A stretch of 50,723 nt of DNA from a virus. The position numbers were made by a program, and so were the translations under genes. The stretch lies in the IMG/VR virus record IMGVR_UViG_3300017749_000016, positions 1 to 50,723 of that record; one strand, 5' to 3'. The notes under the pieces are model-generated. The model was not told where the DNA came from, searched no databases, and was given only the letters and a program-made list of their open reading frames with translations. Numbering within the stretch: the stretch's first letter is position 1; the number at the start of each line of letters is the position of its first letter. Positions 25,715-50,541 of the stretch are shown here, piece after piece.

Positions 25715-25724
25715 GGATAGAAAT

Positions 25725-26759: not shown

Positions 26760-26774
26760 GGAGTAAATAAAAAT

Positions 26775-28494: not shown

Positions 28495-28544
28495 AGGTCC
28501 AAGAATCAATCCTGCCTATGTGCGTCGTCGATAATTACTTTTAC

Positions 28545-29495
28545 ATGAACACACATAATAGATCCAAAGCAATATTTTTAAATGGTGGTATTGGGAGAAT
28601 CCTGTGCGCCATTCCAGCAATCGAAAAATACCAACAAGAATCAGGTGATGAGGATTTTATTGTTGTTATTGAAGGTAAGTGTAACATATTAGATGGTCAT
28701 CCAACGTTGGATAGCAAAACGTATGACGCAATGCACAAAAACTTGTTTCACACTCACGTTAAAAACAGAGAAATTATCAGTCCAGAGCCTTACAGAGTAT
28801 GGGAATATTTCAATCAAAAATGTAATCTGTCACAAGCATTTGATATTATTTTAAATGATAAAGGTGTAAGAGAATTAGATAAACCTAAACTATACCTATC
28901 AAAAGAAGAAAAAATATCTGCAGATAAAATTTTACAAGAATGTAAAGATAAGATAAAAGCAGACAAGTATGTAATATTTCAACCTTTTGGAAGAGCAATA
29001 CAACAAATCGATCAAAGTTTTGTTGACAAAAGCAACAGAAGTATAGACTTCTCTAATTTTAAAAGTATCATTCATAAGTTACACAAAGACAAGTATGGTG
29101 TAATTGTTATGAGCGACTTTGGAATAGAACTAGGAGAAGAAGGATACAAAATGGAAGTTGCTCAACCTGAAAAAATTGATTTACGTATTTGGGCATCTAT
29201 TATAGAAAAAGTAGATCATTTTGTAGGTTGCGATTCTGTAGGACAACACTTTGCATATTCTGTAGGTACACCGTCAACTGTAATAACAGGTGCAACATAT
29301 CCAGAAAACACATCATATCCTGACAAAGAAGGAGTAACCATAGTTGACCTTGGACAAAATGACAGACATTACGATCCAATTAGAATAACGTTTGACGAAA
29401 GAATAAGTCGACACAATGAAAACCTGATGCTTATGACTCCTGAAATAGAGGACTATGTCGTAGACACAATAATGGGAAGGCAAGAAGATGAGTAA
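28545..29495 (+). CDS. GT9-like (heptosyltransferase-family) glycosyltransferase 1, 316 aa
   Basis: A GT-B type fold is suggested by an N-terminal IFLNGGIGRILCAIPAIEKY (compare GGIGD-x-x-x-x-x-PAL of LPS heptosyltransferases), a mid-protein YVIFQPFG (compare the HPGA strand), and VDHFVGCDSVGQHFAYSVGTP with TGATYPEN (compare the D-S/G-x-x-H-x-A donor-site motif of GT9). An ATG at 28518 is also in frame, but 28545 gives the same N-terminal length as the paralogue at 31295. It would transfer a sugar from a nucleotide sugar; ADP-heptose is plausible because hldE and hldD are in this window. It overlaps the carbamoyltransferase by 8 nt. Confidence 0.65.
   Translation: MNTHNRSKAIFLNGGIGRILCAIPAIEKYQQESGDEDFIVVIEGKCNILDGHPTLDSKTYDAMHKNLFHTHVKNREIISPEPYRVWEYFNQKCNLSQAFDIILNDKGVRELDKPKLYLSKEEKISADKILQECKDKIKADKYVIFQPFGRAIQQIDQSFVDKSNRSIDFSNFKSIIHKLHKDKYGVIVMSDFGIELGEEGYKMEVAQPEKIDLRIWASIIEKVDHFVGCDSVGQHFAYSVGTPSTVITGATYPENTSYPDKEGVTIVDLGQNDRHYDPIRITFDERISRHNENLMLMTPEIEDYVVDTIMGRQEDE
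29209..29249 (+). repeat. 41-nt exact repeat, copy 1
   Basis: A 41-nt stretch in the donor-site region of the first GT9-like gene is identical to 31953-31993 in the second. It encodes VDHFVGCDSVGQH in both. Confidence 0.85.
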
Positions 29496-31302
29496 AAAAA
29501 CAGGATACATAGCCGCAATTGCCAGAGGACACAATTCAGGCGTATGTTTATTAAAAGATGGAAAAATAGTTTTTTCTATTGAAGAAGAAAGATTAAGCCG
29601 CGTAAAGTATGATGGTGGACCTTATGCTTCAATGGTAAAAATTTTAGAGTACACAGACAAAATTGATTACCTAGTAGTTGCACACACACAATCATTAAAA
29701 GATAGAAGCACTGGTAGAGTTGATTATAACGGTGATGATGTTTATACAGGACTTGCAAGAAAATTAGGACTTATAGACAAAAAAGGAACTGCAAAGTCTC
29801 CTGAACATCCACAAGTAATTGACTTATCACACATACATCACAAACTACACGCCGCATTGGCTTTTTACAGATCAGGATGGGAAGATGCCGCGGCAGTAAT
29901 TGTAGATGGTGCAGGAACTTTTATACCTGCTACTCATAGTGCAGGTCATCAAATGACTGTGTTTGAAACAGAAACTATATTTGATTGTGCATATCCAAAT
30001 GATTTTGTAACCAAATATAAACATTACGGAACAAGTGAAAATTGCCAATGTGCATATATTCCTGCATATCCATCAGACAGTATGGGTGAACCAGGAAGCA
30101 CACACGAAGCAGTATTTTCAGACAGAGCAGGTATTGTAAAAGTATATGAAGCAGTAACTCAGTATTGTGGATTTAGTGCCATTGAAGCAGGTAAGACAAT
30201 GGGATTATTTCCTTATGGAAAACCAAACAAAGAAATTCCAGAACTTTTTGTACACAACGGCAAAGGAACTTTAAGTAACAGAAACTTAATTATTCCAACA
30301 TATCCAAATGCGGCTCTTGTAAACTACGACAACTTTTATAGTTTAGAAGAAAAACTAGAAACTAATCAAAACGACTTAACTGAATTACAAAGTCGTAGAG
30401 ATTTGGCTTATGCTTGTCAAACAGATACACAAGAAGAAGTTAGAAAACTGATCTATAAAGCAGTTGAAATGACAGGTAAGAAAAAAGTTGTTATATCAGG
30501 CGGATACGGATTAAACTGTGTTGCAAACTACTATTACTTGGATACTTTACGTAAAGATGGAATTGAAATATACGTAGAGCCAGTGTCCAATGATGCAGGA
30601 ACGGCAATGGGTGCCGCTCTATTGTACTATTATTCTTTATCACAAAGCACAGACAAAGACACAACAAAAACTTTATATCTTGGACCAACATACAACTTAA
30701 AGAATGAAGAAATAATGCAATACAATGATGAAGATGGTATTGAAGTTGTAGATTGTACAGATGATGAAGTTGTAAAATTAATGACTGATAAGAACATTGT
30801 TGCACTTTTCCAAGGACAATCAGAAAACGGCCCTAGAGCATTGGGAAATAGAAGTTTACTTTTTGACCCAAGATTCAAAGATGGTAAAGACTTTGTTAAC
30901 CAAGTAAAAAGAAGAGAATATTTTAGACCATTTGCAGGTTCTATTCTGCATGAATACACACATGAATGGTTTGATTTAAGAGGTATGGAAGAAACTCCTC
31001 ACATGATGTATGCAGTAAACTGTCAGCCTGGCGTTGAAGAAAAGATTCCAAGCATTATACACGTGGACGGAACTTGTAGAATACAAAGTGTTAAGAAAGA
31101 AGATAACGAATTGTATTATAGATTGATCAAAAAATTCCATGAAGTTACACAATGTCCTATTGTTTTCAACACTTCTTTCAACTTAGGTGGTGAACCATTA
31201 GTTGAAACGTTGGATGATGCAGTAAGAACATTACAACACAGCGAAATAGAATATCTATATTTGATAGAATACGGTAAACTAGTAAAGGTAAAAAATGGTT
31301 AG
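29488..31302 (+). CDS. Carbamoyltransferase, NodU/CmcH family, 604 aa
   Basis: A full-length two-domain enzyme. The N-terminal TsaD-like ASKHA domain shows IARGHNSGVCLLKDG (about 11-25), EEERLSRVKY (32-41), the metal-site motif HHKLH (117-121), VDGAGTF (139-145) and VISGGYGLNC (335-344). The C-terminal catalytic domain shows QGQSENGPRALGNRSLL (442-458), FRPFAGSIL and NTSFNLGGEPLV. These enzymes use carbamoyl phosphate and ATP, through a carbamoyl-adenylate, to carbamoylate a hydroxyl, often on a sugar. It lies between and overlaps two GT9-like genes by 8 nt each (ATGAGTAA and ATGGTTAG), so the three are co-translated. The likely product is a carbamoylated surface sugar, on host LPS or a virion glycan. 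Confidence 0.9.
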   Translation: MSKKTGYIAAIARGHNSGVCLLKDGKIVFSIEEERLSRVKYDGGPYASMVKILEYTDKIDYLVVAHTQSLKDRSTGRVDYNGDDVYTGLARKLGLIDKKGTAKSPEHPQVIDLSHIHHKLHAALAFYRSGWEDAAAVIVDGAGTFIPATHSAGHQMTVFETETIFDCAYPNDFVTKYKHYGTSENCQCAYIPAYPSDSMGEPGSTHEAVFSDRAGIVKVYEAVTQYCGFSAIEAGKTMGLFPYGKPNKEIPELFVHNGKGTLSNRNLIIPTYPNAALVNYDNFYSLEEKLETNQNDLTELQSRRDLAYACQTDTQEEVRKLIYKAVEMTGKKKVVISGGYGLNCVANYYYLDTLRKDGIEIYVEPVSNDAGTAMGAALLYYYSLSQSTDKDTTKTLYLGPTYNLKNEEIMQYNDEDGIEVVDCTDDEVVKLMTDKNIVALFQGQSENGPRALGNRSLLFDPRFKDGKDFVNQVKRREYFRPFAGSILHEYTHEWFDLRGMEETPHMMYAVNCQPGVEEKIPSIIHVDGTCRIQSVKKEDNELYYRLIKKFHEVTQCPIVFNTSFNLGGEPLVETLDDAVRTLQHSEIEYLYLIEYGKLVKVKNG

Positions 31303-32251
31303 ACAAAGTGCTTTTTTTATGAATGGCGGTGCAGGTAGACATATAAGTTCAATACCTGCTTTAGAATTATATGCAAAAGAAAATCCTGAAGATGATTTTA
31401 TTGTTGTGTGTGAAGGAGGTACAGATGCTTACAAAGGTCATCCTTTATTACATTACAGAGCCTATGATAACTGGCATAAGAATCTATTCCAAGATTTGTT
31501 AAAAGATAGAAACTTAATTTCACCTGAGCCTTACAGAGTATGGGAGTATTACAATCAAAAATGTAGTCTATCAGAGGCGTATGATATTGCTATAAACAAA
31601 AAAGGTCTTCGTAAAATACCTAAACCTAGAATTTATTTGTCAAAAGAAGAAATCTTAATGGCTAGACAAATGATCGGTGAAGTAAAAGAAAAAACTAAAA
31701 AAAATAAAATTATTGTAATTCAGCCTTTTGGAAGAGGTGCTGAGAAAAAGTCAGAATCTGAAGTGGTAGATTTGACAGGTAGAAGCATAGAACTAGAAAA
31801 TTTATGGAGTATAATTAAAAAATTAAGCAAACAATATGGTGTAATGGTGATGAGTGAATTTGGATTAGAATTCAAAACACACGGTGGAATAAACCAACCA
31901 GTTGCACTACCACTGCAAACACACATTAGAATATGGGCGGCAATTATCAAGCAAGTAGATCATTTTGTAGGTTGCGATTCTGTAGGACAACACATTGCAT
32001 ACGCATTTGACAAAACAATTACTGTGCTAATTGGAAGTACTTTTCCTGTGAACACGTCATTTCCAGACAAAGATCATGTGGATATAATTGATCTAGGCAA
32101 AGACAGCCGTATATACAGTCCCATAAGGATCACACAAGACGAATATTCCGACCGTTTAAATGAAGGTATAATGGAAATGGACAAAAACCAAGAAGAAAAA
32201 GTGGTTAATTCCGTCAACTTCATGATCAAGCACAAACACAAAAAAAAGTAG
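31295..32251 (+). CDS. GT9-like (heptosyltransferase-family) glycosyltransferase 2, 318 aa
   Basis: Paralogue of the product encoded at 28545: FFMNGGAGRHISSIPALELY, EPYRVWEYYNQKCSLSEAYD, VIQPFGRGAEK, VDHFVGCDSVGQHIAYAF and FPVNTSFPDKD align with it. The pair shares a 41-nt identical block. The C-terminus is lysine-rich (KHKHKKK). A different acceptor or linkage from copy 1 is likely because the segment after the N-terminal Gly-rich loop and the middle 120 residues have diverged. Transcription presumably continues from the carbamoyltransferase gene. The next gene has its own late-promoter octamer. Confidence 0.65.
   Translation: MVRQSAFFMNGGAGRHISSIPALELYAKENPEDDFIVVCEGGTDAYKGHPLLHYRAYDNWHKNLFQDLLKDRNLISPEPYRVWEYYNQKCSLSEAYDIAINKKGLRKIPKPRIYLSKEEILMARQMIGEVKEKTKKNKIIVIQPFGRGAEKKSESEVVDLTGRSIELENLWSIIKKLSKQYGVMVMSEFGLEFKTHGGINQPVALPLQTHIRIWAAIIKQVDHFVGCDSVGQHIAYAFDKTITVLIGSTFPVNTSFPDKDHVDIIDLGKDSRIYSPIRITQDEYSDRLNEGIMEMDKNQEEKVVNSVNFMIKHKHKKK
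31953..31993 (+). repeat. 41-nt exact repeat, copy 2
   Basis: Identical to 29209-29249; both flanking bases differ. Confidence 0.85.
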
Positions 32252-34716: not shown

Positions 34717-37700
34717 ATGGCAAAACGTAAAGTAGTAAATTATATATTTCAACCAGGAATTCCTAAGTCTGGAAACCTGTTTCCTAATGCTTATGATTTA
34801 ATACTTAATAACCTAGAATTTTTAAAAGACGAGTCAGTTGGCTATGTTGCAGATAGAGTTGCAACAGATACAGCGGCAAACAATTTTCCTAACGCAGTCA
34901 ATAGATTAGATAACAACATTGAATATATCAAAGATGAAGTAGCGGCTTATGTGCTTCAACAAAAGAATGCGGCTGTGGCTCCTTATGCAGGATATTCATA
35001 TGATGTTTTACAATTAGAAACAAGAATTGATACTTTCTTAACAGGATTAAGAAATGATTTAAGATATGGTGGAAATGAAAATTCAAGAAACTATGCACAA
35101 ACATTTTACACAGATGGCTCATTAAACATTGCAGGTGACGGTGAACCAGAAGTAACATATTTTGAGTACGCAAGAAATTTAGTCACAGGCAATATTTTGC
35201 CAGGTGTTAATTTTAGTTCATTACAAAGTGTAACGTCCCAAGATTCATCAGGAGGAACAGGTGAAGCAAATGGTACAACTACATTTACAACACTTGCAAA
35301 TGGTTTTATCACAACACTAGATAACGGAATTATCAACTTGCCAACATTGGTAAGCAGTCCTTACATATTTGCAGGTTACACTTATGATTCATATAAATGT
35401 GAAAGAGACATGGGTTACAACATAAATGGTTTCTTAAATGATTTACGATACGCAGGTAACAAAGAATCAAGATTCAATGCTTCTAAATATTGGATAGGTT
35501 CAACACCACAGATTGACGGTGACAGACAACCTGAGATACTTGTTAAAAATCATATTAGAGATGTCATTAACAATTACATTTTAACAAGAACTGCACACAC
35601 TTCACAACAATCACCAGTAGTAACAACTCAATACTTTGGAACTGCGGCAGGCGAAGCAGGTGCAAGTGCTAGAATCACTGCATTAACTTTTATTATTACA
35701 GATGTAATTGAAAATGGTTTAGATAACTTACCAGCATTAGAAAGAAACGAAATAAGTTCTATTAAAGCACCAACAAAAATTGGTTTAGAAGATGTATTGT
35801 TGATTACAAACACTACACGTAATAAAGTTTTATATAATTTTGCAGACGCTACGCTGGGTGCAGAAGTTTCTTATGAACAAGAAGCAGATCCTGATTATCC
35901 AACATTTTTACAAGTTACAGACACAATTACTACTATATTTTTAAACTTTGATACAAGTACATTTTTAGCAACAGACACAATTCAAATGTTTGTTGAAGAT
36001 AAAGTTATTAGAACAAGACCATTTGATTTTGGAACAGATGCTATTGAAAGAATGAGAGTAGCACCTTCTCAATCAATGCTTGATGCTGACTTTGAGTATG
36101 GATTACAGCCTACAAAATGGCAAGCGATTGGAACACAAAGAGGGTATCCATCAATTTATGAAATACCAGGAACTGATCTAGATGTAGACACAGTTACATC
36201 TGATGCATCTGCAGGAACAAACGGAATAGGTTCATCCTTGATAACAGTGACAACTGTTGGACCACACGGCTTTGAACCTGGTCAAGCATTTACAATTATT
36301 GGATTCACAAATGGTGTTGCAGGTACTGGTAGAGCACAAGGTTCATTTGTGGTAAACACAGTGCCAGGTAATTTGTCATTCACATATTACTCTAAAGCAA
36401 AAGTAGGAACAACTAATGGTGTAGAGATACAAACAACGTTCACTCAATTAAGAAAAGCAGGATTTTATTCAGGTGCAACAATAGGAAGACCAACTTTCAG
36501 TGTGTCATCTAATGGAGCAAATGGAAACTTTGTTTTGCCAATTGGTGGATTAAGTGGAGCAACAATTATTCCATTCCAAGATGCAACTTTGCCTGAGATA
36601 GGTGCACCACTTTCAGGTGGCGGACTGTCTACAGGAACACAGATTACAGCAGTTACAGGTACAGGTAGCACACTAGCAACTCCAGACGTACAAGGTGACT
36701 ACACAGCGGGTGCAACAGAAATAAATGTTGTTGATGCCTCAGGTATTTTACAAAACAGTATCATTGACAGAGGAGATGGATTTGGTGTGGCAATTACCAA
36801 CGTATCAGGTAATGCTTTAACATTGAGTTCTGGTCTTACATCAAACTTAATAGGTGATGTAACAAGTTATTCAAACATAGGTGGCTTTAATATCAGTCCT
36901 GCAGGACAAAATTTTGCTTGTGATGTATTCAACAACGCAGGTGTTTACAGCATAACAGTTTCTAACTCAGGCGAAAACTATGCAATAGGTGATGCAATAG
37001 TGATTACAGGAGATTTAATTGGAGGAGCCACTCCAGCAAACGATTTAACAATAAGTGTTGCCTCTGTAGATACAGGTGGTGAAATTTTAACTACAACATT
37101 AGATGGTGAAGCATTTACTGGTTCAGGTTCTAAAGCAAATATTTCTGGAACATTTAACAATGGTACAGGTACAGGCGGAGGTTGGGACATTACAAAAACT
37201 AACAACTCTTATTCAGCAAGTTTAAGAAATCCAACTTACACATCCGTTGAAGGAACTGTTACAGGTGGTGCTGGTTCTGGATTACAACTGGACGTAACAA
37301 TCAACGCAAACAGTTATTCAGCAGTGCTAGGTAGCAGTGATGCAAGTGCAGGCTATGTGATAGATGATGTTGTTAATTTCACAGGCGGTACTTTTGGTGG
37401 TACAACAAACGAAAATTTATATGTAAGAATCACTGGTGTTGATGGCACTGGTGCAGTAACAAACTTTACAACATCAGGAACGGCTCCAGATGCACAAGAA
37501 GCCTATGCTGTTAATGTAAGTGATTACACAGCAAGTGCCTCAGGTGCAGGTGCAACTTTTTCAGTAACAAGAACAGGTACAACGTATTCTGCAACAACAA
37601 CTGGTTTAGGTTCAGGATTCATTCAAACGGAAACTGTTACAGTGTTAGGAACATTTTTAGGTGGAACAAGTCCTGCAAACGATTGTACAATAACAGTTGA

Positions 37701-40700
37701 CAGTGTAGATGGTGGTGGTGGAATTCTTACAACCACTGTAACAGGAACAGCACTTAACAGTAAAACTTTTATAGATGTAGCATCAGGATCAAATTTACTT
37801 GGTACAGGTGCGTCTTTTGATGTGGTATTAAACGGCACATCTTACAATACAATTACAGTTAACAACGCAGGTTCAAACTATGGCGTTGGACAAAACTTGG
37901 TAATTCCAGGAACAAGTTTAGGTGGAGTAACACCAACACACGATTTAACTATTCAAATTACTGCTTTAACATCTCCTGCAAGAGGTGTAAACACTTTTAG
38001 TAACAGTGGCTCAGCGGCAAACGGTGGAACATCAGGTTACACTGTAGGTGATTTAATAAAAATTGAAGGTTCAAATTTAAACGGAATTACTGGTACTAAT
38101 GATGCAATTATAAAAGTTGCAAGTGTTAATGGTGATACATCATTGAACACATTTACAGTTTCGGGTACAGCCTCAGATGCGGCAGTAGATTATTCTACAC
38201 CTGCTTTCACAGGTGGTGATGGTGTTGGAGCAAACTTCACAGTAACAAGAACTGGTGCAGTTTACAGTGCCACAATAGATGCGGCAGGTACAGGCTACAA
38301 TGCAACAAACACAATTACCATTGCTGGTACAGAAGTTGGTGGATTATCACCAGCAAATGATGTTACAATCACAGTTGATTCTGTAGATGGTGGCGGTGGT
38401 ATTGCTACAACAACTGTAAGTGGTACAGCAGTCAATGTACAAAATTACACAGATGTTAATGCAACCAATCTAGTAGGACAACTTGCAACATTTGACATTG
38501 TGTTGGCGGCAGGTAATTATTCAATTGCAGTAAACAACGCAGGACAAAGTTATGGTGCTGATCAAACATTCACTGTACTAGGACCAAATTTATTTGGTAC
38601 TTCACCAACTAACGATGCAACAATTACTATCACTAGTGTGAATGCATCTGGTGGAATTACAGGAGCAAACATTTCAGGAACGGCAAACACAGGAAGTGCA
38701 AGTACACTAGGAGTGTCAGGCTCAAACAGAGTACCACAAGGTGTTGGTGCAACGTTCAGTGTGACAAGATCAAATCAAACTGATTCTTCTACAACATATT
38801 TAGAAGTGATTGGAAGTGCAACAGGATCTAACTATGCAGTAGGTGACAGGATTACACTACAAGGTCAAAGTTTAGGTGGTAATTCACCAGCAAATGATAT
38901 TGTTGTTACAGTACAAGGTATTAACACAACAGGTGGAGTGTTAACAAATACACACACAGGTGTAGCGGCATCAGGAACTGGAATATCAGTTTACTCTAGT
39001 GTAACAATTTCAGAACCAACTGGATCAAGTATCGCTAACGGCACAACATTAACATACGCGGCATTGGCAACCATACAGATTGATTTTGAAACTCCTCATG
39101 GACTTGTTCCAGGAGATGCTTTCTTGGTCACAATACAATCAGATGATGGTGCAAACAATCACTTGTTGGCATCAGGACCGTTTTTAGCAACTTCGATTCC
39201 ATCATTACAACAATTACAATATCAAGTAAGAGCACCAGGTACAATTACAGACAGTGCTTGGCAAGGATTTATATATGTACGTCCAGATTCATTCTTTATA
39301 CACAGACCATTTGATGGTGGTGTTCAATTAGGAACAGGTGGACCACAACACGGTGCACAGGCTATACGTCAATCTAAAAAATATATTAGATACCAATCAG
39401 GTAAAGGTATTATGTACACAACTGGTGCCTTGTTTGCACCAAGTTATGATTTATTAAATGTAACAGCAGATGCAACATCTGTTGGATCAACGATTACAGT
39501 TGAAACAGATGATACAGATCATGGATTACAAGTAGGTTCAACAGTTAGATTAATTGGTATTGGAACTTCGGGATACAATGGTTACTACACAGTAGCAAGT
39601 GTAACAAGTGAAAGAAGATTCACAGTACTTGCAGTACAATCACTAGGTGGAACAGTAGCAGAATTTGAAGATCAACCGCAAGTAACATTATCAAATTGGA
39701 ATGGTGCAACTGTACGTTCAGGAACATTTGATGATCAAAACGGAATTTTCTGGCAGTTTGATGGACAGAATTTAGCCTTTGTACAAAGAACTTCAACAAG
39801 ACAGGTAACAGGTACAATTACAGCAATACCTGATTCAAACTCAATTACAGGTGTAGGAACAAGATTTAGAGAACAATTAAAAGCAGGTGACAGAATTGTA
39901 ATAAGAGGAATGACACACGTTGTTTCACAAGTAAATTCAAACACACAGATGTTTGTAACTCCAGATTACAGAGGTGTTAACACATCAGAAGGTGTTAAGG
40001 CTTGTTTGGTTTTAGATAAAATTGTTAAACAAAGTCAATTTAATTTAGACAAAATTGACGGCACAGGTCCAAGTGGATACAATTTTGATCCAGGCAAGAT
40101 GCAGATGATCGGGATACAGTTTTCATGGTACGGGGCTGGATTTATTGACTTCATGACAAGAGGATCAAATGGTGACTTTGTGTTTGCACACAGAATGAGA
40201 AATTCAAACGTGAACACAGAAGCATTTATGAGAACTGGTAACCAACCAGTGCGTTACGAAGTAGCCAATGAAGGACCTAGTGGCAAATTAGAAGCGAATG
40301 TAAGTACAACAGCAACTGAATTACCGTTGATTGATGCATCATTCTTCCCAACAACAGGTGGAACAGTTTATGTTGACAATGAAATTGTTACATTTACAGG
40401 AGTATCAGGAGACAAACTAACAGGTTGTACACGTTCAGCACAGTTAACAAACTTTGCTTCAGGTGCCACAAGATCATACTCAGCAGGTAATGCCGCAGAA
40501 CACTTTAGGAACACAGGTGTTGTTTTAATATCTAACACAACATCACCGATTATATCACACTGGGGATCAGCATTTATTACAGATGGTAACTTTGATGAAG
40601 ATAGAGGATACTTGTTCAGTTACTCAGCATCAGGATTAGATATCACAACAACAAGACAAACTGTATTCCTATTAAGACTAGCACCGTCAGTATCAAATGC

Positions 40701-41697
40701 ATTGACAGGTGACTTAGGTGACAGAGACCTGTTGAACAGAGCCCAATTACTTTTAGATGGACTAGAAGTTACTTCAGACACACCGGCTACGGGTACTAAT
40801 GGACAGATTGTAATCAATGGAATTTTAAATCCACAAAATTATCCAGTTGATCCAAGTGACATTGGTTGGACTGACTTGACTGGTGTTGCACAGGGTGGAC
40901 AACCATCATTTGCTCAAATTGCACCAGGTGGTTCAGTTACTTGGAACTCAGGTACAACAACTACAACAGCAACAGCATTAACAACTAACGCAATGACGTC
41001 AACAGCAAATCACTGGTTTAATTTAAGTGGAAACAGAAACTATGCATACTTCTTACAAGCAGATTGGGAAAACAAAGGTCACGTAGTTGGTATGGAAGTT
41101 ACATCTGCACAATTCCCATCAGGTACAACTGTAACACAAATTCAAGACAGAGGTTCATATTACTTGGTTTACTTCTCACAAAGACACACAGGTATAAGTG
41201 GCGGACAAGCAGTAGATTTTAGTTATGGTGGAAATATTACAAACTCTAACTACTTGTTCTTCCAAGAAGCATCTTGGTTGGCACTTGGTGCGGGAACAGG
41301 AACAGAAGTAGACTTTGCTACAAGTACAGAATTTCCAGCAGGTTCATCAGTTGTATCAATTGCATCAGTATTAACATTTGGTGCAACAAACTATTATCGT
41401 GTAACATTTAACCAATCGTTCCAAGGAACTATTGCAGGCGGTACAGCCATATCATTCTCATTTGGTCAACCACCATATGCACAACCTGGTCAGAGTATTT
41501 TCTCATTTGTTGCCCAACCTGGAGAAAGATCAACATTGGCTCTTAATGCAATCCAAGAACTTACAAATACAACATTGGGTGGCAGAGGAACGTTCCCGAA
41601 TGGTCCTGACGTGTTAGCAATTAACATATCAAGAACAGCAGGTACAGGTGGTGTTCCAGCAACAGTTACGTTGCGTTGGTCAGAAGCACAAGCGTAA
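34717..41697 (+). CDS. Very large repeat-containing virion protein, 2326 aa
   Basis: The start (MAKRKVVNYIFQPGIPKSGN) and a C-terminal block (ISHWGSAFITDGNFDEDRGY) are hallmarks of a large structural protein of marine T4-like phages. Residues 1-360 contain helical modules, including two related segments (LETRIDTFLTGLRNDLRYGGN and CERDMGYNINGFLNDLRYAGN) also seen in the 1907-aa protein. Residues about 730-1420 are about seven degenerate repeats of 85-95 aa (GATFSVTR..., NNAGSNYGVG, GG-x-SPANDL-x-I-x-V, SVDGGGGI, SGTA). The C-terminal third includes YQSGKGIMYTTGALFAP and EIVTFTGVSGDKLTGCTR. It ends 14 nt from the convergent minus-strand operon. It may be a long tail-fibre shaft or a peripheral baseplate protein; no catalytic motif was recognised. 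Confidence 0.6.
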   Translation: MAKRKVVNYIFQPGIPKSGNLFPNAYDLILNNLEFLKDESVGYVADRVATDTAANNFPNAVNRLDNNIEYIKDEVAAYVLQQKNAAVAPYAGYSYDVLQLETRIDTFLTGLRNDLRYGGNENSRNYAQTFYTDGSLNIAGDGEPEVTYFEYARNLVTGNILPGVNFSSLQSVTSQDSSGGTGEANGTTTFTTLANGFITTLDNGIINLPTLVSSPYIFAGYTYDSYKCERDMGYNINGFLNDLRYAGNKESRFNASKYWIGSTPQIDGDRQPEILVKNHIRDVINNYILTRTAHTSQQSPVVTTQYFGTAAGEAGASARITALTFIITDVIENGLDNLPALERNEISSIKAPTKIGLEDVLLITNTTRNKVLYNFADATLGAEVSYEQEADPDYPTFLQVTDTITTIFLNFDTSTFLATDTIQMFVEDKVIRTRPFDFGTDAIERMRVAPSQSMLDADFEYGLQPTKWQAIGTQRGYPSIYEIPGTDLDVDTVTSDASAGTNGIGSSLITVTTVGPHGFEPGQAFTIIGFTNGVAGTGRAQGSFVVNTVPGNLSFTYYSKAKVGTTNGVEIQTTFTQLRKAGFYSGATIGRPTFSVSSNGANGNFVLPIGGLSGATIIPFQDATLPEIGAPLSGGGLSTGTQITAVTGTGSTLATPDVQGDYTAGATEINVVDASGILQNSIIDRGDGFGVAITNVSGNALTLSSGLTSNLIGDVTSYSNIGGFNISPAGQNFACDVFNNAGVYSITVSNSGENYAIGDAIVITGDLIGGATPANDLTISVASVDTGGEILTTTLDGEAFTGSGSKANISGTFNNGTGTGGGWDITKTNNSYSASLRNPTYTSVEGTVTGGAGSGLQLDVTINANSYSAVLGSSDASAGYVIDDVVNFTGGTFGGTTNENLYVRITGVDGTGAVTNFTTSGTAPDAQEAYAVNVSDYTASASGAGATFSVTRTGTTYSATTTGLGSGFIQTETVTVLGTFLGGTSPANDCTITVDSVDGGGGILTTTVTGTALNSKTFIDVASGSNLLGTGASFDVVLNGTSYNTITVNNAGSNYGVGQNLVIPGTSLGGVTPTHDLTIQITALTSPARGVNTFSNSGSAANGGTSGYTVGDLIKIEGSNLNGITGTNDAIIKVASVNGDTSLNTFTVSGTASDAAVDYSTPAFTGGDGVGANFTVTRTGAVYSATIDAAGTGYNATNTITIAGTEVGGLSPANDVTITVDSVDGGGGIATTTVSGTAVNVQNYTDVNATNLVGQLATFDIVLAAGNYSIAVNNAGQSYGADQTFTVLGPNLFGTSPTNDATITITSVNASGGITGANISGTANTGSASTLGVSGSNRVPQGVGATFSVTRSNQTDSSTTYLEVIGSATGSNYAVGDRITLQGQSLGGNSPANDIVVTVQGINTTGGVLTNTHTGVAASGTGISVYSSVTISEPTGSSIANGTTLTYAALATIQIDFETPHGLVPGDAFLVTIQSDDGANNHLLASGPFLATSIPSLQQLQYQVRAPGTITDSAWQGFIYVRPDSFFIHRPFDGGVQLGTGGPQHGAQAIRQSKKYIRYQSGKGIMYTTGALFAPSYDLLNVTADATSVGSTITVETDDTDHGLQVGSTVRLIGIGTSGYNGYYTVASVTSERRFTVLAVQSLGGTVAEFEDQPQVTLSNWNGATVRSGTFDDQNGIFWQFDGQNLAFVQRTSTRQVTGTITAIPDSNSITGVGTRFREQLKAGDRIVIRGMTHVVSQVNSNTQMFVTPDYRGVNTSEGVKACLVLDKIVKQSQFNLDKIDGTGPSGYNFDPGKMQMIGIQFSWYGAGFIDFMTRGSNGDFVFAHRMRNSNVNTEAFMRTGNQPVRYEVANEGPSGKLEANVSTTATELPLIDASFFPTTGGTVYVDNEIVTFTGVSGDKLTGCTRSAQLTNFASGATRSYSAGNAAEHFRNTGVVLISNTTSPIISHWGSAFITDGNFDEDRGYLFSYSASGLDITTTRQTVFLLRLAPSVSNALTGDLGDRDLLNRAQLLLDGLEVTSDTPATGTNGQIVINGILNPQNYPVDPSDIGWTDLTGVAQGGQPSFAQIAPGGSVTWNSGTTTTTATALTTNAMTSTANHWFNLSGNRNYAYFLQADWENKGHVVGMEVTSAQFPSGTTVTQIQDRGSYYLVYFSQRHTGISGGQAVDFSYGGNITNSNYLFFQEASWLALGAGTGTEVDFATSTEFPAGSSVVSIASVLTFGATNYYRVTFNQSFQGTIAGGTAISFSFGQPPYAQPGQSIFSFVAQPGERSTLALNAIQELTNTTLGGRGTFPNGPDVLAINISRTAGTGGVPATVTLRWSEAQA
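36910..38970 (+). repeat. About seven tandem 85-95-aa protein repeats
   Basis: The repeat unit has a GATF-x-V strand, a Y-x-A/I-x-V-x-NAG-x-x-Y turn, GD/GQ-x-x-x-I-x-G, LGG-x-(S/T)P-x-ND-x-T-I-x-V and a closing DGGGGI-x-T-x-x-x-SGTA. The repeats are recognisable in protein but degenerate in DNA, so they are not recent copies. Single units also occur in the 1718- and 1907-aa proteins. Confidence 0.65.
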
Positions 41698-41711: not shown

Positions 41712-42131
41712 TTAAAGTATTTTTTTTGCTAGACTTTGTGGGTCAGCACCAGGAGTTTTTTGTCCATCACCAGGTATAACTCTATAGTTGTCATCTGGAT
41801 CATCCATTGTACTAACTTCTGTGACACTGCCTGTGTCAGTTGTACAAATTAATTGGTGAGGCATCAATGGAGGATTGTGCCACGTTTCACCAGTCTTTAA
41901 TGGTTTTTCGTAAAGTGTTGCAGTTTTTGTATCAATATATCTTAATTTAAACTCACCGTCATTAACAAACCAAGTTTCGTCTTTATTTTTATGAAAGTGC
42001 ATAGAAAATTTTGCATCTTTTTTAGTAAAAACTAGAAACTTTCCACAGTAGTGTTCGTTGGATGCCCATATAACTTCGTATCCCCAACCTTTTGTAATTT
42101 TATCACCTTGTTTATTAAAATTTTTCGACAT
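41712..42131 (-). CDS. Cupin-fold protein, possible sugar isomerase or epimerase, 139 aa
   Basis: A small single-domain cupin. Cupin motif 1 is MHFHKNKDETWFVNDGEF, with the H-x-H and Glu metal ligands; motif 2 includes NPPLMPHQLI with the third His. The opening GWGYEVIWASNEHYCGK resembles the cupin domain of type II mannose-6-phosphate isomerases. I take the ATG at 42131; a TTG three codons upstream is less likely. The start lies 17 nt inside the end of hldD, so the two are coupled, and the protein presumably acts on the same sugar pathway. It could be a sugar-phosphate isomerase or a sugar-binding cupin; the substrate is not evident. Confidence 0.65.
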   Translation of the reverse strand: MSKNFNKQGDKITKGWGYEVIWASNEHYCGKFLVFTKKDAKFSMHFHKNKDETWFVNDGEFKLRYIDTKTATLYEKPLKTGETWHNPPLMPHQLICTTDTGSVTEVSTMDDPDDNYRVIPGDGQKTPGADPQSLAKKIL

Positions 42132-42927
42132 ATTGTTCAATTGTGCTCCAATCTACGTTAACAAATTTATTTACTTTAGAATTGTCTGCCCTAGTGTAAC
42201 TTTGATAGTGCTTTCTAATGTTTTCTGGCATTGGTATTTCTTCAATTTTGGCATCATATTTCTTTGCAATCACTTCAGCAACGTGTTTAAAACTTACATT
42301 GGTACCTGTGCCAACATTGAACACACCAGAAGTATCTGCTTCCAACATTTGACTGTGAACTTCACATACGTCATGCACACTCACAAAGTCTCTGGTGTAC
42401 TTGTCACTATCTTGAAAAATTTTAATAATGCCATTATCTTTTGCTTGTTGTATAAACTTACTTACAGGACTCATTTGATTGCCTTTGTGTTCTTCCATAG
42501 GCCCGTACACATTAAAATATCTAAAACCTTGCACTAACACATTAAATTGTCCTGCCTGTTGTATAAATCTATCAAACAGATATTTGCTCCAACTATATGG
42601 AGATTGTGGAGATACAGGCGAATCTTCGTTGAAGTCTTTTACATTTCCATACACACTTGCGGAACTGGCATACTGAAAGTTTGTGCCCATCTGTTCACAC
42701 ATTTGTAACAACCGCATACTGTATTCATAATTTTGTGTAAGAATTTTATCTACATTAGTTTCAGTTGTTGAACTTATTGCACCTAGATGGATTACCCAAT
42801 CATACTTTGAAGCATCAGGATATACATTTGGTGTATACTCAAAGCCTTCTACCTCATGGTTATTTTCAAGATGTTGTATTAAGTTTTGTCCTATAAAACC
42901 TGCACCACCTGTAACTAATATTCTCAT
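42115..42927 (-). CDS. hldD: ADP-L-glycero-D-manno-heptose 6-epimerase-like SDR enzyme, 270 aa
   Basis: An extended short-chain dehydrogenase. The NAD(P)-binding loop TGGAGFIG is at 6-13 and the catalytic pair Y-x3-K is YSWSK at 111-115. Features specific to HldD include HLGAISSTTET (47-57), YASSASVYG (86-94), GFRYFNVYGPMEEHKG (134-149) with Lys148 matching the second catalytic lysine of HldD, RDFVSVHDV (179-187) and FNVGTG (203-208). HldD converts ADP-D-glycero- to ADP-L-glycero-D-manno-heptose, the donor for LPS core heptose. At 270 aa it is shorter than bacterial HldD (about 310). With hldE in the same operon the assignment is strong; another nucleotide-sugar epimerase activity is the alternative. 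Confidence 0.8.
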   Translation of the reverse strand: MRILVTGGAGFIGQNLIQHLENNHEVEGFEYTPNVYPDASKYDWVIHLGAISSTTETNVDKILTQNYEYSMRLLQMCEQMGTNFQYASSASVYGNVKDFNEDSPVSPQSPYSWSKYLFDRFIQQAGQFNVLVQGFRYFNVYGPMEEHKGNQMSPVSKFIQQAKDNGIIKIFQDSDKYTRDFVSVHDVCEVHSQMLEADTSGVFNVGTGTNVSFKHVAEVIAKKYDAKIEEIPMPENIRKHYQSYTRADNSKVNKFVNVDWSTIEQYVEKF

Positions 42928-43716
42928 TTAAAATCCAAAGTATTGAAACTTGCCATCCCACTTATATTTTGTGTAAAACAAGTTATTTTTATCTACCATA
43001 TTAACATCTAATTCTTCATTTGTCAAATAATGTTGTAAAAATTCATTTTTATCTATATTGATGTCTAAAGCAGGAGCCAAACAATTTTTTATCCAGTTTG
43101 CGTGTGTGCTAATAGATGGATGTTTATCTTGTTCAACTTTTTTACGTTTCGAAAAAAAACTAATGGGATCTTGGTCTTTGTACGTAACATTAATCTCTGG
43201 CGATTTTACATCATCTGAATAACTTTGAATTGGAGTTACCCAATTGTCATAAATCTCTTTGTTGTGTACAAACGGTTGTTCTTTTATCAGTGCTGGTACA
43301 TCTACACTACTTGTGATTGCCCACTTGCACTCTAAACTTTTCAAAAAGTTTATTGTCATGCTGATATAATTATGATTCATGTACATATAACTTTCTTCAT
43401 TCCAGGTTTGTTGGATCCAAGGCTCTTCAACGCCTCCCTTCATCCAAATATTTCCTCCTGCTCTCCAATTGCCAAAAGGCAAAATACCCATTGAGTGAAT
43501 GTCTATTCTGTTGAAGTCTGTAAACTGCACAACAACATAATCGTCTTTTGTAATTGTGTTTTTTGTTAATGCTTCATGTACTCTTTGCATTATTGCGTTG
43601 TTGCCTAGTCCACTGATTGCCCAGTTTTGAAAATCATCAAATTGATATCCAAGCAAGTCACTCCAACAGGGCCAATAATAATTTGTGTAACTACAACCAA
43701 ACGTAAACAATTTCAT
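42928..43716 (-). CDS. SGNH/GDSL-like hydrolase, 262 aa
   Basis: SGNH blocks can be traced: block I FTFGCSYTNYYW with nucleophile Ser9, block II SGLGNNA (35-41), block III around VVVQFTDFNR (61-70), and block V DKHPSISTHANW with Asp197 and His199. This architecture occurs in small phage and bacterial proteins that add or remove acyl groups on glycans. The gene stop abuts the hldD ATG with no gap. It probably tailors the sugar made by this operon, as an O-acetyl esterase or transferase, but substrate and direction are not deducible. Confidence 0.6.
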   Translation of the reverse strand: MKLFTFGCSYTNYYWPCWSDLLGYQFDDFQNWAISGLGNNAIMQRVHEALTKNTITKDDYVVVQFTDFNRIDIHSMGILPFGNWRAGGNIWMKGGVEEPWIQQTWNEESYMYMNHNYISMTINFLKSLECKWAITSSVDVPALIKEQPFVHNKEIYDNWVTPIQSYSDDVKSPEINVTYKDQDPISFFSKRKKVEQDKHPSISTHANWIKNCLAPALDINIDKNEFLQHYLTNEELDVNMVDKNNLFYTKYKWDGKFQYFGF

Positions 43717-43717
43717 T

Positions 43718-44335
43718 TTAATCTATCTTATCACACCATTTAACAATTTCATTCCATTGTGCTTCAGTGAATATATCTTTGTACATTGATTTTTCTGTAA
43801 ATCTTGGAATAAAATTGATATTAAGTGCTACTCTTGAATTTGCATTGGTGCAAGTTGAGCCCGAGTGTTTCATGTTGCTAGGGAATAAAACTATTCTATT
43901 AGCAACGCTTTCAACTTTGTCACCATCTTCAAACGCAGTGTATCCATTGTTTGTATTCATGTAGTAAATGCCGGTAATACTTAAAGGTACTAGGCAATCA
44001 CAATGGTATCCATGCACATAAACTTTGTCTGCTCTTGGCACTAGATTAGCCTTAATTCTTATAAAAGTGTTTGGATGAATTCTATTGAAAATAGGAAACA
44101 GCATTTGCCAATTGTCTTGTTCAGTCACAACACTTCCATCTTCTCTCAACACATGATGAGTAAACTGATACTGGTGTTTTTGACTTTCAGTTTCAATTTG
44201 AGATTCACTTACGACATAATTTTTAAAATACCAAGGAAAGTGCTCTCCAGCATAACGTTCCAAAACTGGTTTTGCTTCATTGTCTGGTAAAAAATTATCA
44301 ATAATTATTTTGTTATTCTGTATTTTTTTTTGCAT
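43718..44335 (-). CDS. 2-oxoglutarate/Fe(II)-dependent oxygenase, 205 aa
   Basis: A double-stranded beta-helix oxygenase like prolyl 4-hydroxylase. The iron ligands are H-x-D at 111-113 (YHCDC) and distal His157 (FPSNMKHSG); Arg168 ([10 protein letters not shown]) would bind 2-oxoglutarate. [12 protein letters not shown] between them is typical. Its ATG lies 23 nt inside the end of hldE. Phages of this type often carry several such oxygenases with unknown targets. Possible roles are hydroxylation of a sugar, a nucleotide or a virion protein; the operon context favours a tailoring step on the glycan. Confidence 0.75.
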
Positions 44336-45578
44336 TTTCTTTTACCTTGTTCATAATATCTGTGGTCGAAAATCCTTGCACAGTTGGAAAAATTTTCACT
44401 TCTGCTAGTTCGTTACCTACAGTTGTTTCAACTGTGTAATCACCACCTTTAATAATAACATTTGGTTTGTGCTGTTGGATTGCTTCTAATGGAGTATCTT
44501 GATCAAATACAACAACGTCATCTACCCACGGTAATTGTAGTAGTTGTTGCTCGCGGTCATGAGCAGTGTTAAATGGTCTACCTTCGCCTTTAAGTCTTTT
44601 TACACTCTCATCAGAATTGATACCTACTATAAGTTTGTCGCCTTGCTGACTTGCAAACTTTAAAAGTTCAAAATGTCCTTTGTGTAAAATATCAAACACG
44701 CCATTGGTCCATACAACTGTGTCTTCAATATCTTTAATATCAATTATAGAAACACCTCTTTTTTGAATTATTTTTTGAGCACCTTTTACTGCAAGTTCAC
44801 AACAATTAAGCATATCTTTAAATGGAAAATAATGTGCAATTACAGCCAACACAGAATCACCTGCACCACTGACGTCTGCAATTTCTACTGTTGTGCCTTT
44901 TACTTGTTCATAAGTATTTTTAGTTACTACGTGAATTCCGTTAGAGCCATCAGTTACAATTAACCAAGTCCATAAATTTTTTACACAATGCTCTTGGGCT
45001 CTTTTGTAATCAAATGAACCAAACCATGATTCATATTCTTTCATATTTGGCTTTACCAAATACGCTCCTTTGTAAGTGCTAAAGTCTTGTTTTGGATCAA
45101 CAAAAACTCTTTTACATTTTTCTATAATTTTTTGCACTGTGTCTTTTTTAATAACGCCTTTTGCGTAGTCGCTTATGATCACAGTATCATTTGGTTCTAA
45201 ATCTTTTAACAGTGTTTCAACAGGTGTATTTTTTGAATAATTTTCTTCCTTGTCTATACGTATCAAGTGTTGTCCGTTCTGTCCTATAATTCTAGTTTTG
45301 GTAGTTGTGCAATCACTGTCTTCTGATACGTAAGATTTCACAGCATTTTGCATTAATATTTCTTGTATTTTATGCCCTGGGGTGTCGCTACCCACTGATC
45401 CATATAAAGACGTGTGTGTGCCCAAATTTGACAGGTTTAAAGACAGATTTCCTGCGCCTCCTACGTTATATTCTTTGTCAGATTCTTTAACAACAAGTAC
45501 AGGTGCTTCTGGGCTGACTTTTTGGCAGTCACCGTTTACCCATACATCTAACATTATGTCGCCAATAATTTTAATCAT
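44313..45578 (-). CDS. hldE: Bifunctional heptose-7-phosphate kinase / heptose-1-phosphate adenylyltransferase, 421 aa
   Basis: Both halves of HldE are present. The N-terminal ribokinase-like kinase (1-280) has [16 protein letters not shown] (38-53), DPKQDF (161-166), KPNMKEY and the catalytic VSGAGDS (236-242, Asp241). The C-terminal nucleotidyltransferase (from 289) has [12 protein letters not shown] (291-302, the H-x-G-H ATP site), [18 protein letters not shown] (318-335), IKGGDY (376-381) and the terminal [10 protein letters not shown]. It phosphorylates D-glycero-D-manno-heptose 7-phosphate at C1 and, after GmhB dephosphorylation, adenylates heptose 1-phosphate. It is shorter than the E. 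coli enzyme (477 aa) but lacks no core motif. No gmhA or gmhB is in the window, so those steps must come from the host or elsewhere in the phage. It overlaps the Nudix gene by 8 nt. Confidence 0.9.
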
Positions 45579-46005
45579 CTAAAAATTTTAATATTTTGAA
45601 TACAGTTTCTAATTTTGTTTGATTTATTTTTGATTGCAATGTTTTTCTTAATCCTTGGTGTAAAGGTTTCGGCCAATGATTAAATGTACACCACGCAAAG
45701 CCGTCATGTTCTTTGTTGAGTTTAGGTAAAAATTCAGGACCTACAACACAAAGATATGTGTGATATAAAAATGCTTCATCGTTGCTGATGAACGTTTCCA
45801 TAGGTATAGTTTTGAGTATTTTAACACTACCAATTTCTTCTTTGATTTCTCTTTGAAGTCCAGTCCAAGCAAGTTCGTTAGTAGTCGTACCTCCTACTAA
45901 TCCCCATACCCTGTTTTGTTTGCTCTGTGTTCTGTGTAGCAGTAAAAATCTATTTGTTTCTTTAGAATAGAATAATGCACCGCAACCAATAATCTTCTCG
46001 GTCAT
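45571..46005 (-). CDS. Nudix hydrolase, 144 aa
   Basis: A complete Nudix box G-x5-E-x7-REIKEEIG lies at residues 38-59, with the catalytic glutamates at 53, 56 and 57. The N-terminus [21 protein letters not shown] is typical of the family. It hydrolyses a nucleoside diphosphate linked to another moiety. As first gene of the heptose operon it may act on a nucleotide sugar (GDP-mannose- or ADP-sugar-type), or it may be a general house-cleaning enzyme. A late-promoter octamer lies 9 nt ahead of its ATG. Confidence 0.8.
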
Positions 46006-46014
46006 ACAGTTAAT

Positions 46015-46022
46015 TATTTAGA
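46015..46022 (-). promoter_or_regulatory. Putative late promoter TCTAAATA (minus strand)
   Basis: Read on the minus strand, TCTAAATA spans the gp15 stop codon (46018-46020) and ends 9 nt before the Nudix ATG. It would let the heptose operon be expressed as a late unit independent of the neck genes. The same stop-codon arrangement occurs at 13043-13050. Confidence 0.45.
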
Positions 46023-47460
46023 GTTGAATTTGCCAGGTTCCTTTACGATATTCACCTTCAAACGATAACAGCCATTGTTCGCCTGTCCATTTGTATTGTA
46101 TTCCGGTATTCAGGTTTGAGATAAATTTGGTACTAAAATTATCACTGCTAGTTGTATTTGCACTGGCATCAAATAGTACTGTCCATGCTGATCCATTCCA
46201 TTCAATAATATCATTTTCATTTAGATCAGTCAAAGTGGTGTCAGTGTTTTTCCAAGCATCTGCGTCATTGTTTACATCTGCAAGTAATAACAATCTTACA
46301 CCTGTTTGTTTTATATCTGTAGGATTAAATTTTGTTGGATCGATTATGTAGTCAACTGTGCCTCTAGAATTTACTCCTGTAAACACAGTGTCTGTTGGAA
46401 TAGTATCTTCATCCCAATTTATAATCAGTTGGGTTTCATTTAATTCATTAACTGCAAAAGTTCCACTTACTCTTGTATCAATATCTTGTCTGTTGAGTAA
46501 AATTTTACTTAAACCTGCACTGTATTTGCCTGGCAAAGTTTGTAAAATTTTATTCCAATTTACAGCGCCTGCAATACCTTTGTCAATTATTTGTGCAACA
46601 TTATTCATTACCAATACATCATATCCAATAGCAGTTGTGGCAATCACAGCATCAGCATCTTCTTTAGTTGTTGCACTTGTATCAATACTACCATCTGCAT
46701 TTGTTGTAATTGTTGACTTGACACTTTTTGCATAATCATCTGAATATGCTTGAAGTTCTGGCATTGATTCTCCCAAATCAATATTGCCTGTTTTTTCATT
46801 GTATATACTTGCAATAATCTGTGTAACAACACCTAACTTTTTAACTTTAGTTGGTGGAGAAATATATATAGGTGTTGAAAAATTTAATGTCGCAACATCT
46901 ATTTCCGATTCTGTGCCAGTTGGAATACTTCTATTACTAAAATTAATATTTGCAATTTCAACCACACTTAAACTTGTCCAATCCACATAGTTGTCAGTGG
47001 TTTGTATTTCTAAACTAGGGTTAAACAACATTAATATTTGTTCCATTATTTGTAATTTTTGTTCTGTGTTTGTTGTCCATAAATCTACAGCAACACTCAA
47101 TGTATATGGCGTAGGCATTAATCTTTCCACAGTGAAATTTTTACCTTGAGTATTCAAATATTCATTATTGTCCTTATCATATGCACGTTCTCTTAAATGT
47201 ACTTTACTAACGTAGGTAGCATCTGCTAATCTATTTCTGTCTAATTCAAGATTAGTAATGTATACACCCATTCTAGGTGCACTCATAATTTTATTTTCTG
47301 AGTTGTCTCTCATAATGTGAGCAACCTGTCTTGTGATATCACCATACATCACAGGTATGGTACGCAAAGCACCATCACCGTCTTGATAATTAAAATTGCT
47401 CATTAATCTCACTATTTGAGTGATGTATCTTCTTATTTGTCCATCGTAAAAAAATTGCAT
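46018..47460 (-). CDS. gp15: T4 gp15-like tail sheath stabilisation/completion protein, long form, 480 aa
   Basis: The N-terminal half follows T4 gp15: MQFFYDGQIRRYITQIVRLMSN (compare FYN-x-x-FRRY of T4), a VMYGDITRQ strand, MPTPYTLSVAVDLWT, a Q-x-MEQIL-x-x-FNPSLE helix and a final TPIYISPP near residue 210. In T4 gp15 caps the contracted-sheath end of the tail and joins it to the neck. Here 480 residues compare with about 270 in T4: about residues 215-480 are extra, with strand-rich sequence and a WNGSAWTVL, YKWTGEQWLL ending that looks like a surface-exposed decoration. The start overlaps the 63-aa gene by one base. Confidence 0.7.
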   Translation of the reverse strand: MQFFYDGQIRRYITQIVRLMSNFNYQDGDGALRTIPVMYGDITRQVAHIMRDNSENKIMSAPRMGVYITNLELDRNRLADATYVSKVHLRERAYDKDNNEYLNTQGKNFTVERLMPTPYTLSVAVDLWTTNTEQKLQIMEQILMLFNPSLEIQTTDNYVDWTSLSVVEIANINFSNRSIPTGTESEIDVATLNFSTPIYISPPTKVKKLGVVTQIIASIYNEKTGNIDLGESMPELQAYSDDYAKSVKSTITTNADGSIDTSATTKEDADAVIATTAIGYDVLVMNNVAQIIDKGIAGAVNWNKILQTLPGKYSAGLSKILLNRQDIDTRVSGTFAVNELNETQLIINWDEDTIPTDTVFTGVNSRGTVDYIIDPTKFNPTDIKQTGVRLLLLADVNNDADAWKNTDTTLTDLNENDIIEWNGSAWTVLFDASANTTSSDNFSTKFISNLNTGIQYKWTGEQWLLSFEGEYRKGTWQIQL

Positions 47461-49899: not shown

Positions 49900-50541
49900 A
49901 TGCAACACAAAATGATTCCGTTATTTTCCGTGCCTCTGTTTAAAACAAACATTGGTCCATTAGATTCCATTGAAAGAACTTGGATAGATGGTTTAGAATA
50001 TCCAGATAAAGCAGTAGCAAGGGACAATTCAGATGATCATATGGAACCTGTGAATAGAGGAATGCACATTCTAGATAGTGGACAATTAAAAAATACAAAA
50101 ATTAAAATTCAAAATGCATTGAACTACTTTACAAAAACGATCATGGGCGTTGAACAAGATTTTAGACTTACAACAAGTTGGATAAACAAAATTCCTGAAA
50201 CAGAATGGATACAACAACACTCACACGCAAACAGTGTGATAAGCGGAGTGTATTATATTCAAACCACACCACAATGTTCTCCCATTGTTTTCAACAAACC
50301 ATTCCTGTACACAAATTTTGTGCATCAAACAGTGCAAATTACATTTGATGAAAATGTTAGTAATCAGTACAATACAGAACACATAGGAGTACAACCAGAG
50401 ACAGGAGATCTTTTGTTGTTCCCATCATGGTTAGAACACACAGTAAGACCACAACAACCAAATGTTGATAGAATAGGATTGGCGTTCAATTGTTTCCCTA
50501 CAGGCAAATTTGGAAAAGGAACGTATCAATTAACATTATGA
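49900..50541 (+). CDS. 2-oxoglutarate/Fe(II) oxygenase of the small phage type, 213 aa
   Basis: The sequence fits the 2OG-FeII_Oxy_5-type family: IPLFSVPLFKTN near the start, WIQQHSHANSVISGVYYIQ (102-121; His107 and His109 in the metal-site region), then GDLLLFPSWLEHTVRP (169-183; His180) and DRIGLAFNCFP (190-200; Arg191). These proteins are common in marine T4-like phages and their substrate is unknown. It is unlike the 205-aa oxygenase on the minus strand except in fold and motif order. The stop overlaps the next ATG by 4 nt (ATGA). An early-type promoter precedes it. Confidence 0.7.
   Translation: MQHKMIPLFSVPLFKTNIGPLDSIERTWIDGLEYPDKAVARDNSDDHMEPVNRGMHILDSGQLKNTKIKIQNALNYFTKTIMGVEQDFRLTTSWINKIPETEWIQQHSHANSVISGVYYIQTTPQCSPIVFNKPFLYTNFVHQTVQITFDENVSNQYNTEHIGVQPETGDLLLFPSWLEHTVRPQQPNVDRIGLAFNCFPTGKFGKGTYQLTL

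Follow-up and report, generated by a model that had tools for sequence, protein, structure and literature searches.

A predicted ADP-heptose gene run and a GT9-like gene pair in the tail region of a marine T4-like phage

The window analyzed here is the whole 50,723-base virus record IMGVR_UViG_3300017749_000016, to which it is identical over its full length. It is a fragment of a marine T4-like phage, in which six close-set minus-strand genes (41712-46005), in the order Nudix, HldE, 2-oxoglutarate (2OG) oxygenase, SGNH-like protein, HldD and cupin, stand in a phage neighborhood, with gp15 upstream and with families of baseplate and tail-fibre proteins spread over 2.9-24.7 kb. A second gene set (28518-32251), about 10-13 kb from the heptose run and within the tail-fibre locus, comprises two phrog_8954 paralogues, 50% identical, which flank a NolO-like carbamoyltransferase. 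HldE and HldD are supported as predicted ADP-heptose-making enzymes, and we propose, at slightly under even odds (about 0.48), that ADP-heptose is made late and serves to glycosylate tail proteins of the phage itself. Heptose genes are already known from cyanophages; the module is the new part.

Results

The HldE of the run carries a PfkB kinase and a nucleotidyltransferase domain on one chain, with the GAGD (238-241, including Asp241) and HxGH (HKGH, 299-302) motifs both present, and its GAGD aligns with that of B. cenocepacia HldA, for which a structure has been solved. HldD retains the Rossmann GGxGFIG together with Y111, K115 and K148; Y111/K115 and K148 align with the YxxxK and the HKG lysine of E. 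coli HldD, whose structure 1eq2 is the best solved match. The residues that an earlier note on this DNA had listed for both catalytic halves of HldE and for HldD were thus all located, and they align with solved homologues. The HldE model tops the NCBIfam ranking with 321.7 bits (62 for the next unrelated model), as does the HldD model TIGR02197 with 242.7 bits (83 for the next unrelated model).

The run is as compact as that note had described it. Nudix and hldE overlap by 8 nt, hldE and the 2OG gene by 23 nt, and hldD and the cupin by 26 nt, or 17 nt when counted from the in-frame ATG at 42131 rather than from the TTG start codon of the cupin; 1 nt separates 2OG from SGNH, and SGNH and hldD abut (0 nt). 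The previously proposed span, 41712-46022, is right in its start and its genes and overshoots at its end, as Nudix begins at 46005. The Nudix start lies 12 nt from gp15, so that the six genes continue the gp15 structural transcription unit. Values of pN/pS between 0.05 and 0.24 across the six genes, measured against a relative (L009) with 79-97% protein identity, indicate purifying selection, which, together with the recurrence of the heptose block in 77 IMG/VR loci, argues that the block is not due to chance. Elsewhere in the window, two long baseplate-wedge-like genes with the same PHROG families lie in tandem (2882-6052 and 6221-10567).

Not all six genes belong together. In the 77 loci, which were found via HldE and many of which are incomplete at their ends, Nudix occurs 77 times, gp15 76, HldD 66, the cupin 58, 2OG 42 and SGNH 16. 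A Nudix homologue (39.7% identity) follows gp15 in Pseudomonas phage Paride, a jumbo phage without heptose genes, and Nudix is therefore an older neighbor than the cassette; as a cassette member it is rejected, since Paride has gp15-Nudix without hldE. On gene content, the stable core of the predicted heptose pathway is hldE-hldD-cupin, while 2OG and SGNH are optional and come and go. The description of four tailoring genes thus finds no support in that form: Nudix is a gp15 neighbor in Paride, the cupin behaves as a core heptose-pathway gene, and the look of optional decorations is confined to 2OG and SGNH. The SGNH-like protein has no Pfam match, and a profile search found no solved relative; the Ser, Gly, Asn and His of the SGNH blocks are all present and invariant (S9, G38, N39 and H199), as GCS, G38-N39 and H199 are in 18 homologues. 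It is found near the GT9-like glycosyltransferase (GT) in 23 of 80 GT loci, mostly between the GT and NolO. The PHROG name "DNA endonuclease V" (phrog_274) is misleading, as it covers the 2OG oxygenase at 43718-44335. A second 2OG-Fe(II) oxygenase (PF13759, phrog_81; window 49900-50541) adjoins gp13 and lies near the block in many relatives.

The cupin has a metal site of three His and one Glu (H48, H50, E55 and H95), invariant across the jumbo-phage and cyanophage members and of a kind common to many cupins. Its fold gives a mixed result, Foldseek ranking D-lyxose isomerases first and VIA ranking CapF/KdgF/PMI first, and the Lyx_isomer match is below threshold in 15 of 16 members. The cupin was found in 35 phage records, 31 of them with the HldE adenylyltransferase or kinase, and in Bellamy and SynMITS9220M01 it stands beside HddA- and HddC-like GDP-heptose enzymes. 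The ADP- and GDP-heptose routes have the GmhA and GmhB steps in common; the company of both sets of enzymes therefore makes the cupin a candidate isomerase, and we hypothesize that it is a non-homologous stand-in for GmhA. The SIS-type GmhA (SIS_2 domain) appeared in 0 of 34 contigs, with none in a 335 kb phage contig, and it exceeded the cut-off in 0 of 26 records, complete cassette-bearing cyanophages among them; SynMITS9220M01 has a weak match below the cut-off. For the known families, the reported absence of gmhA and gmhB from the window is correct. A genome scan with the cupin reached only two contigs, both phage, of one metagenome-assembled genome (MAG), with no bacterial gene context. 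The same phage block is carried by contigs L166 (PBPT01000016.1, 335 kb) and L167 (PBPT01000082.1, 153 kb) of Ca. Neomarinimicrobiota MAG RS350, at identical similarity, which may reflect a bin contaminated by phage or offer a hint of the host.

The cyanophage protein that the PHROGs name phosphoheptose isomerase is HAD-type, about 102-115 aa long with the motif DIDGTIC, and is a candidate GmhB. A search for this family, which lacked a positive control, returned nothing from 23 records, the 335 kb contig among them; in the window's lineage the GmhB step must come from the host or from an unrecognised phosphatase. Two PHROG names mislead here, "phosphoheptose isomerase" (phrog_1238; L079, 14312-14656) for the HAD-type protein and "cysteine dioxygenase" (phrog_7851; window 41712-42140) for the sugar-pathway cupin. 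Some cyanophage heptose clusters (L174, 7423-8321; L184, 1422-2630 and 8748-9730) also contain a class II aldolase, and the S-SM2 cluster a transketolase-like gene as well, as if the heptulose precursor were also made.

The second gene set and the Cys/Gly-rich triplet at 24749-27743 had both been overlooked in the earlier reading. An AlphaFold2 model of GT copy b, built from 40 homologues (pLDDT 89.9, pTM 0.90), is closest in fold (VIA) to the Veillonella GT9 protein 3tov (Z 24.5, root-mean-square deviation 3.5, 282 residues aligned), followed by WaaF (Z 21.8), TibC (Z 20.2) and WaaC (Z 19.2), with other GT-B folds at about 13. The GT retains the Asp and the His of the donor pocket, D228 and H233 aligning with D261 and H266 of WaaC. 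In neither window copy does PF01075 reach its cut-off (best E in the family 6.5e-7), a PDB sequence search returned chance matches only, and a WaaC/WaaF profile gave weak statistics, with an hhalign probability of just 15%, so the GT9 link rests on fold and aligned motifs. Judged from the model, the phrog_8954 proteins are GT9 heptosyltransferase-like. The four-Cys iron finger, the defining feature of the BAHT proteins (PMC4358343), is absent, only C90 and C227 being near-invariant, and so is the N-terminal beta-barrel, as the alignment of the full model with TibC starts at residue 92 of the latter and the barrel comprises residues 1-97. Lacking finger, barrel and catalytic Asp, the GT was rejected as a BAHT (TibC/AAH) enzyme.

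Just upstream of the GT lie three Cys/Gly-rich proteins (9-11% Cys, 15-16% Gly), which by their position may be virion proteins that are glycosylated. The family is present in 10 of 10 GT-positive records tested (best match at least 77 bits), six of which are outside the profile, and in none of 16 GT-negative records, where the profile match is at most 36 bits; Fisher's test on 6/6 versus 0/16 gives P = 1.3e-5, uncorrected for phylogeny. With tblastn the Cys/Gly-rich protein gave no matches, probably through low-complexity filtering, and the profile search succeeded. An alternative candidate acceptor is a 2326-aa structural protein, which among the matches listed is covered to 67-75% only in the GT-positive S-CAM1, S-CAM3 and AG-345-P14.

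The two arms travel together. Of 80 GT loci, 79 were found to have NolO. Among phage records in INPHARED, the GT at 36% identity or more and NolO at 45% or more pick out one identical set of 23, every one of them with the HldE adenylyltransferase (23/23). Of 37 GT-bearing records, 30 have HldE domain II together with the cupin and the other 7 have neither, some of these absences being contig ends; the cupin therefore behaves as a core heptose-pathway gene. The order in S-CAM1, S-CAM3, S-SSM7 and Sf-FS3 is tail fibre, Cys/Gly-rich, GT, NolO, RfaE-II, PfkB, HAD, cupin, HldD (reversed), with gp13-15 near the module end and occasional small insertions, and in P-SSM2 the set adjoins a tail-fibre gene. 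The window's gp15 is nearest (about 30-33%) to those of the jumbo phages Atu_ph07, Phosso and PA5oct relatives, and the phage itself is no close cyanophage. The presence of the module in such distant phages suggests that it probably crossed phage lineages along with tail genes.

Table 1. Features of the window and the basis or status of each assignment.
Feature	Position	Strand	Basis or remark
Nudix hydrolase	45571..46005	-	gp15-adjacent, older than cassette, probably no part of it
HldE-like heptose-7-P kinase / heptose-1-P adenylyltransferase	44313..45578	-	single bifunctional open reading frame (ORF), 421 aa
2OG-Fe(II) oxygenase, accessory	43718..44335	-	phrog_274; 42/77 loci
SGNH-hydrolase-like, accessory	42928..43716	-	motif residues invariant
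HldD-like ADP-heptose 6-epimerase	42115..42927	-	270 aa, TIGR02197
Cupin, candidate sugar-phosphate isomerase (role inferred)	41712..42140	-	phrog_7851
gp15 tail sheath stabiliser, upstream in minus-strand run	46018..47460	-	PF16724, phrog_11196
GT9 heptosyltransferase-like, copy a	28518..29495	+	PF01075 19.1 bits (cut-off 22)
NolO-like O-carbamoyltransferase between GT copies	29488..31302	+	PF16861, PF02543
GT9 heptosyltransferase-like, copy b	31295..32251	+	phrog_8954; predicted fold
Three paralogous Cys/Gly-rich proteins, candidate acceptors (inferred)	24749..27743	+	phrog_4205, composition, GT co-occurrence
2326-aa virion structural protein, alternative candidate acceptor	34717..41697	+	homologues named virion structural

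Discussion

On the proposed reading, the tail-fibre region houses a phage module with two arms, of which the six-gene run is one. This arm, on the minus strand (HldE, HldD and cupin, with 2OG and SGNH as options), would make ADP-heptose late, being read together with gp15; that gp15 lies ahead of the heptose genes in the run suggests that they are expressed late. Heptose 7-phosphate would derive from sedoheptulose 7-phosphate, via the cupin in GmhA's place or via host GmhA, and the 7-phosphatase would be the host's in the window's lineage and the HAD phosphatase in cyanophages. The plus-strand arm, two GT9-like proteins around a NolO-like carbamoyltransferase, would then transfer and carbamoylate the heptose. 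The acceptors would be the phage's own locus proteins, with the Cys/Gly-rich triplet as first choice and the structural protein at 34717-41697 as second. The gene content, motifs, folds, conservation and co-occurrence on which this scheme builds are observed, while its reactions, its late timing and the role of the cupin are predicted.

Several points weigh against this scheme. Both the acceptor and the product of transfer are inferred throughout rather than observed. HldE misses its curated NCBIfam cut-off (321.7 versus 521 bits), also by domain (rfaE domain I 228.7 versus 345, domain II 149 versus 181.5), and HldD, a protein about 40 aa shorter, reaches 242.7 of 274.6 bits; for this reason the proteins are named HldE-like and HldD-like. 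Their earlier assignment as ADP-heptose enzymes thus draws support from the ranking of models, from motifs and from selection, and none from the curated cut-offs. In the GT, the catalytic Asp after beta-1 (WaaC D13, TibC D110) is replaced by Arg15, invariant in 40 sequences, so that activity is not assured: either another residue acts as base, or the acceptor needs none, or the reaction is a different one. A thiol acceptor would, speculatively, suit the Cys-rich neighbors of the GT. The co-occurrence counts are uncorrected for relatedness or linkage, both of which inflate them. Heptose cassettes without the GT stand among ordinary glycosyltransferases in P-TIM68, S-SM2, Sf-CH5 and S-T4, and phage ADP-heptose is therefore not always tied to tail genes. 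Finally, no T4 late promoter (TATAAATA) was found for the window's minus-strand arm; the single exact match in the window (49080, plus strand, before gp13) is fewer than chance.

Virion glycosylation is favored over host surface remodelling, in which the GT9-like enzymes would put carbamoylated heptose on the host lipopolysaccharide (LPS) or another envelope glycan, altering receptors and blocking superinfection. This explanation, which we regard as somewhat unlikely, draws on the membership of WaaC and WaaF in GT9, on the L,D-heptose that HldD yields and LPS transferases use, and on the ordinary glycosyltransferases around other cyanophage heptose cassettes. It is also how the literature reads such genes: rfaE in pelagimyophages has been taken as LPS remodelling (PMC7029224), and the S-SSM6a cluster has been interpreted as decorating the capsule or yielding a secondary metabolite, in a paper that lists the cupin among sugar isomerases (PMC7824862). 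Yet in all lineages examined the GT and NolO lie within the tail-fibre locus, the GT is co-inherited with Cys/Gly-rich tail-locus proteins, the heptose genes come after gp15 in a structural run, and the genes profiled include none for lipid A, Kdo or O-antigen. Where the earlier note left the choice between LPS remodelling and a phage-specific glycan, the new evidence thus leans to the latter, on the virion, with LPS remodelling as a rival.

The substrate may instead be a related sugar phosphate and the product another ADP-sugar, as the missed cut-offs of HldE and HldD and the loss of the usual catalytic Asp of the GT would allow. This seems quite improbable, since the second-best models are far behind, the kinase, adenylyltransferase, epimerase and heptosyltransferase-like protein all point to one sugar, and the cupin and HAD also accompany HddA-/HddC-like GDP-heptose enzymes. 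Least probable of all is that the genes for sugar, carbamoyl and oxygenase functions serve a pathway to a diffusible secondary metabolite, an idea put forward for the S-SSM6a cluster (PMC7824862). The S-SSM7 run does hold a halogenase, two carbamoyltransferases and 2OG enzymes, but the halogenase is neither annotated in the P-SSM2, S-CAM1, S-CAM3 and Sf-FS3 runs nor found in the window's cassette, and the core common to all lineages consists of heptose activation, the GT9-like protein, NolO and the tail-locus proteins.

If the virion is indeed heptosylated, phages would have a glycosylation route that draws on ADP-heptose, the long-annotated cyanophage clusters would be accounted for, and the cultured phages S-CAM1 and P-SSM2 would provide a defined enzyme-substrate pair. 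Were the cupin a phosphoheptose isomerase, it would supply the missing step of the pathway. No proposal for heptosylation of phage proteins was found in the literature searched, which lacked most subscription papers. A bolder and unlikely version holds that marine T4-like and jumbo phages possess a self-contained protein-heptosylation system, in which the cupin replaces GmhA, HldE/HldD supply ADP-heptose, and a dedicated Cys/Gly-rich tail adhesin receives carbamoyl-heptose, possibly via cysteine, through the Arg-for-Asp GT9 and the carbamoyltransferase.

Comparison with known systems

The established ADP-heptose pathway proceeds through GmhA, HldE, GmhB, HldE and HldD. The window resembles it in its predicted HldE (both domains) and HldD, with motifs intact, and differs in having no SIS-type GmhA or GmhB, in the cupin fixed in the cassette, and in its setting amid phage structural genes. 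Compared with WaaC/WaaF, the phage GT is alike in its predicted fold and in its donor-pocket Asp and His, whereas it has Arg for Asp13, 11-14% identity and a context other than LPS genes. It shares with the TibC/AAH autotransporter heptosyltransferases the GT-B/GT9 fold and the arrangement of a dedicated transferase beside candidate protein acceptors, but has neither the N-terminal beta-barrel nor the four-Cys iron finger, and carries Arg for the catalytic Asp. Mycobacteriophages provide a parallel for the outcome, as phage-encoded glycosyltransferases decorate virion proteins there, with no known tie to heptose in what PMC12619734 relays of that work (Freeman 2023).

The closest likeness is to the cyanophage "LPS" cassettes (P-SSM2, S-SSM7, S-SM2 and S-CAM1; T4-GC 302-308), described in the literature as LPS genes without a known function and as possible stuffer DNA (PMC3037559). 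These have homologous GT, NolO, adenylyltransferase, kinase, cupin and epimerase genes, except that S-SM2 is without the GT. In the window, by comparison, the HAD protein was not found, HldE is one ORF and the GT is doubled, and the carrier is not close to the Kyanoviridae but related to jumbo phages such as Atu_ph07.

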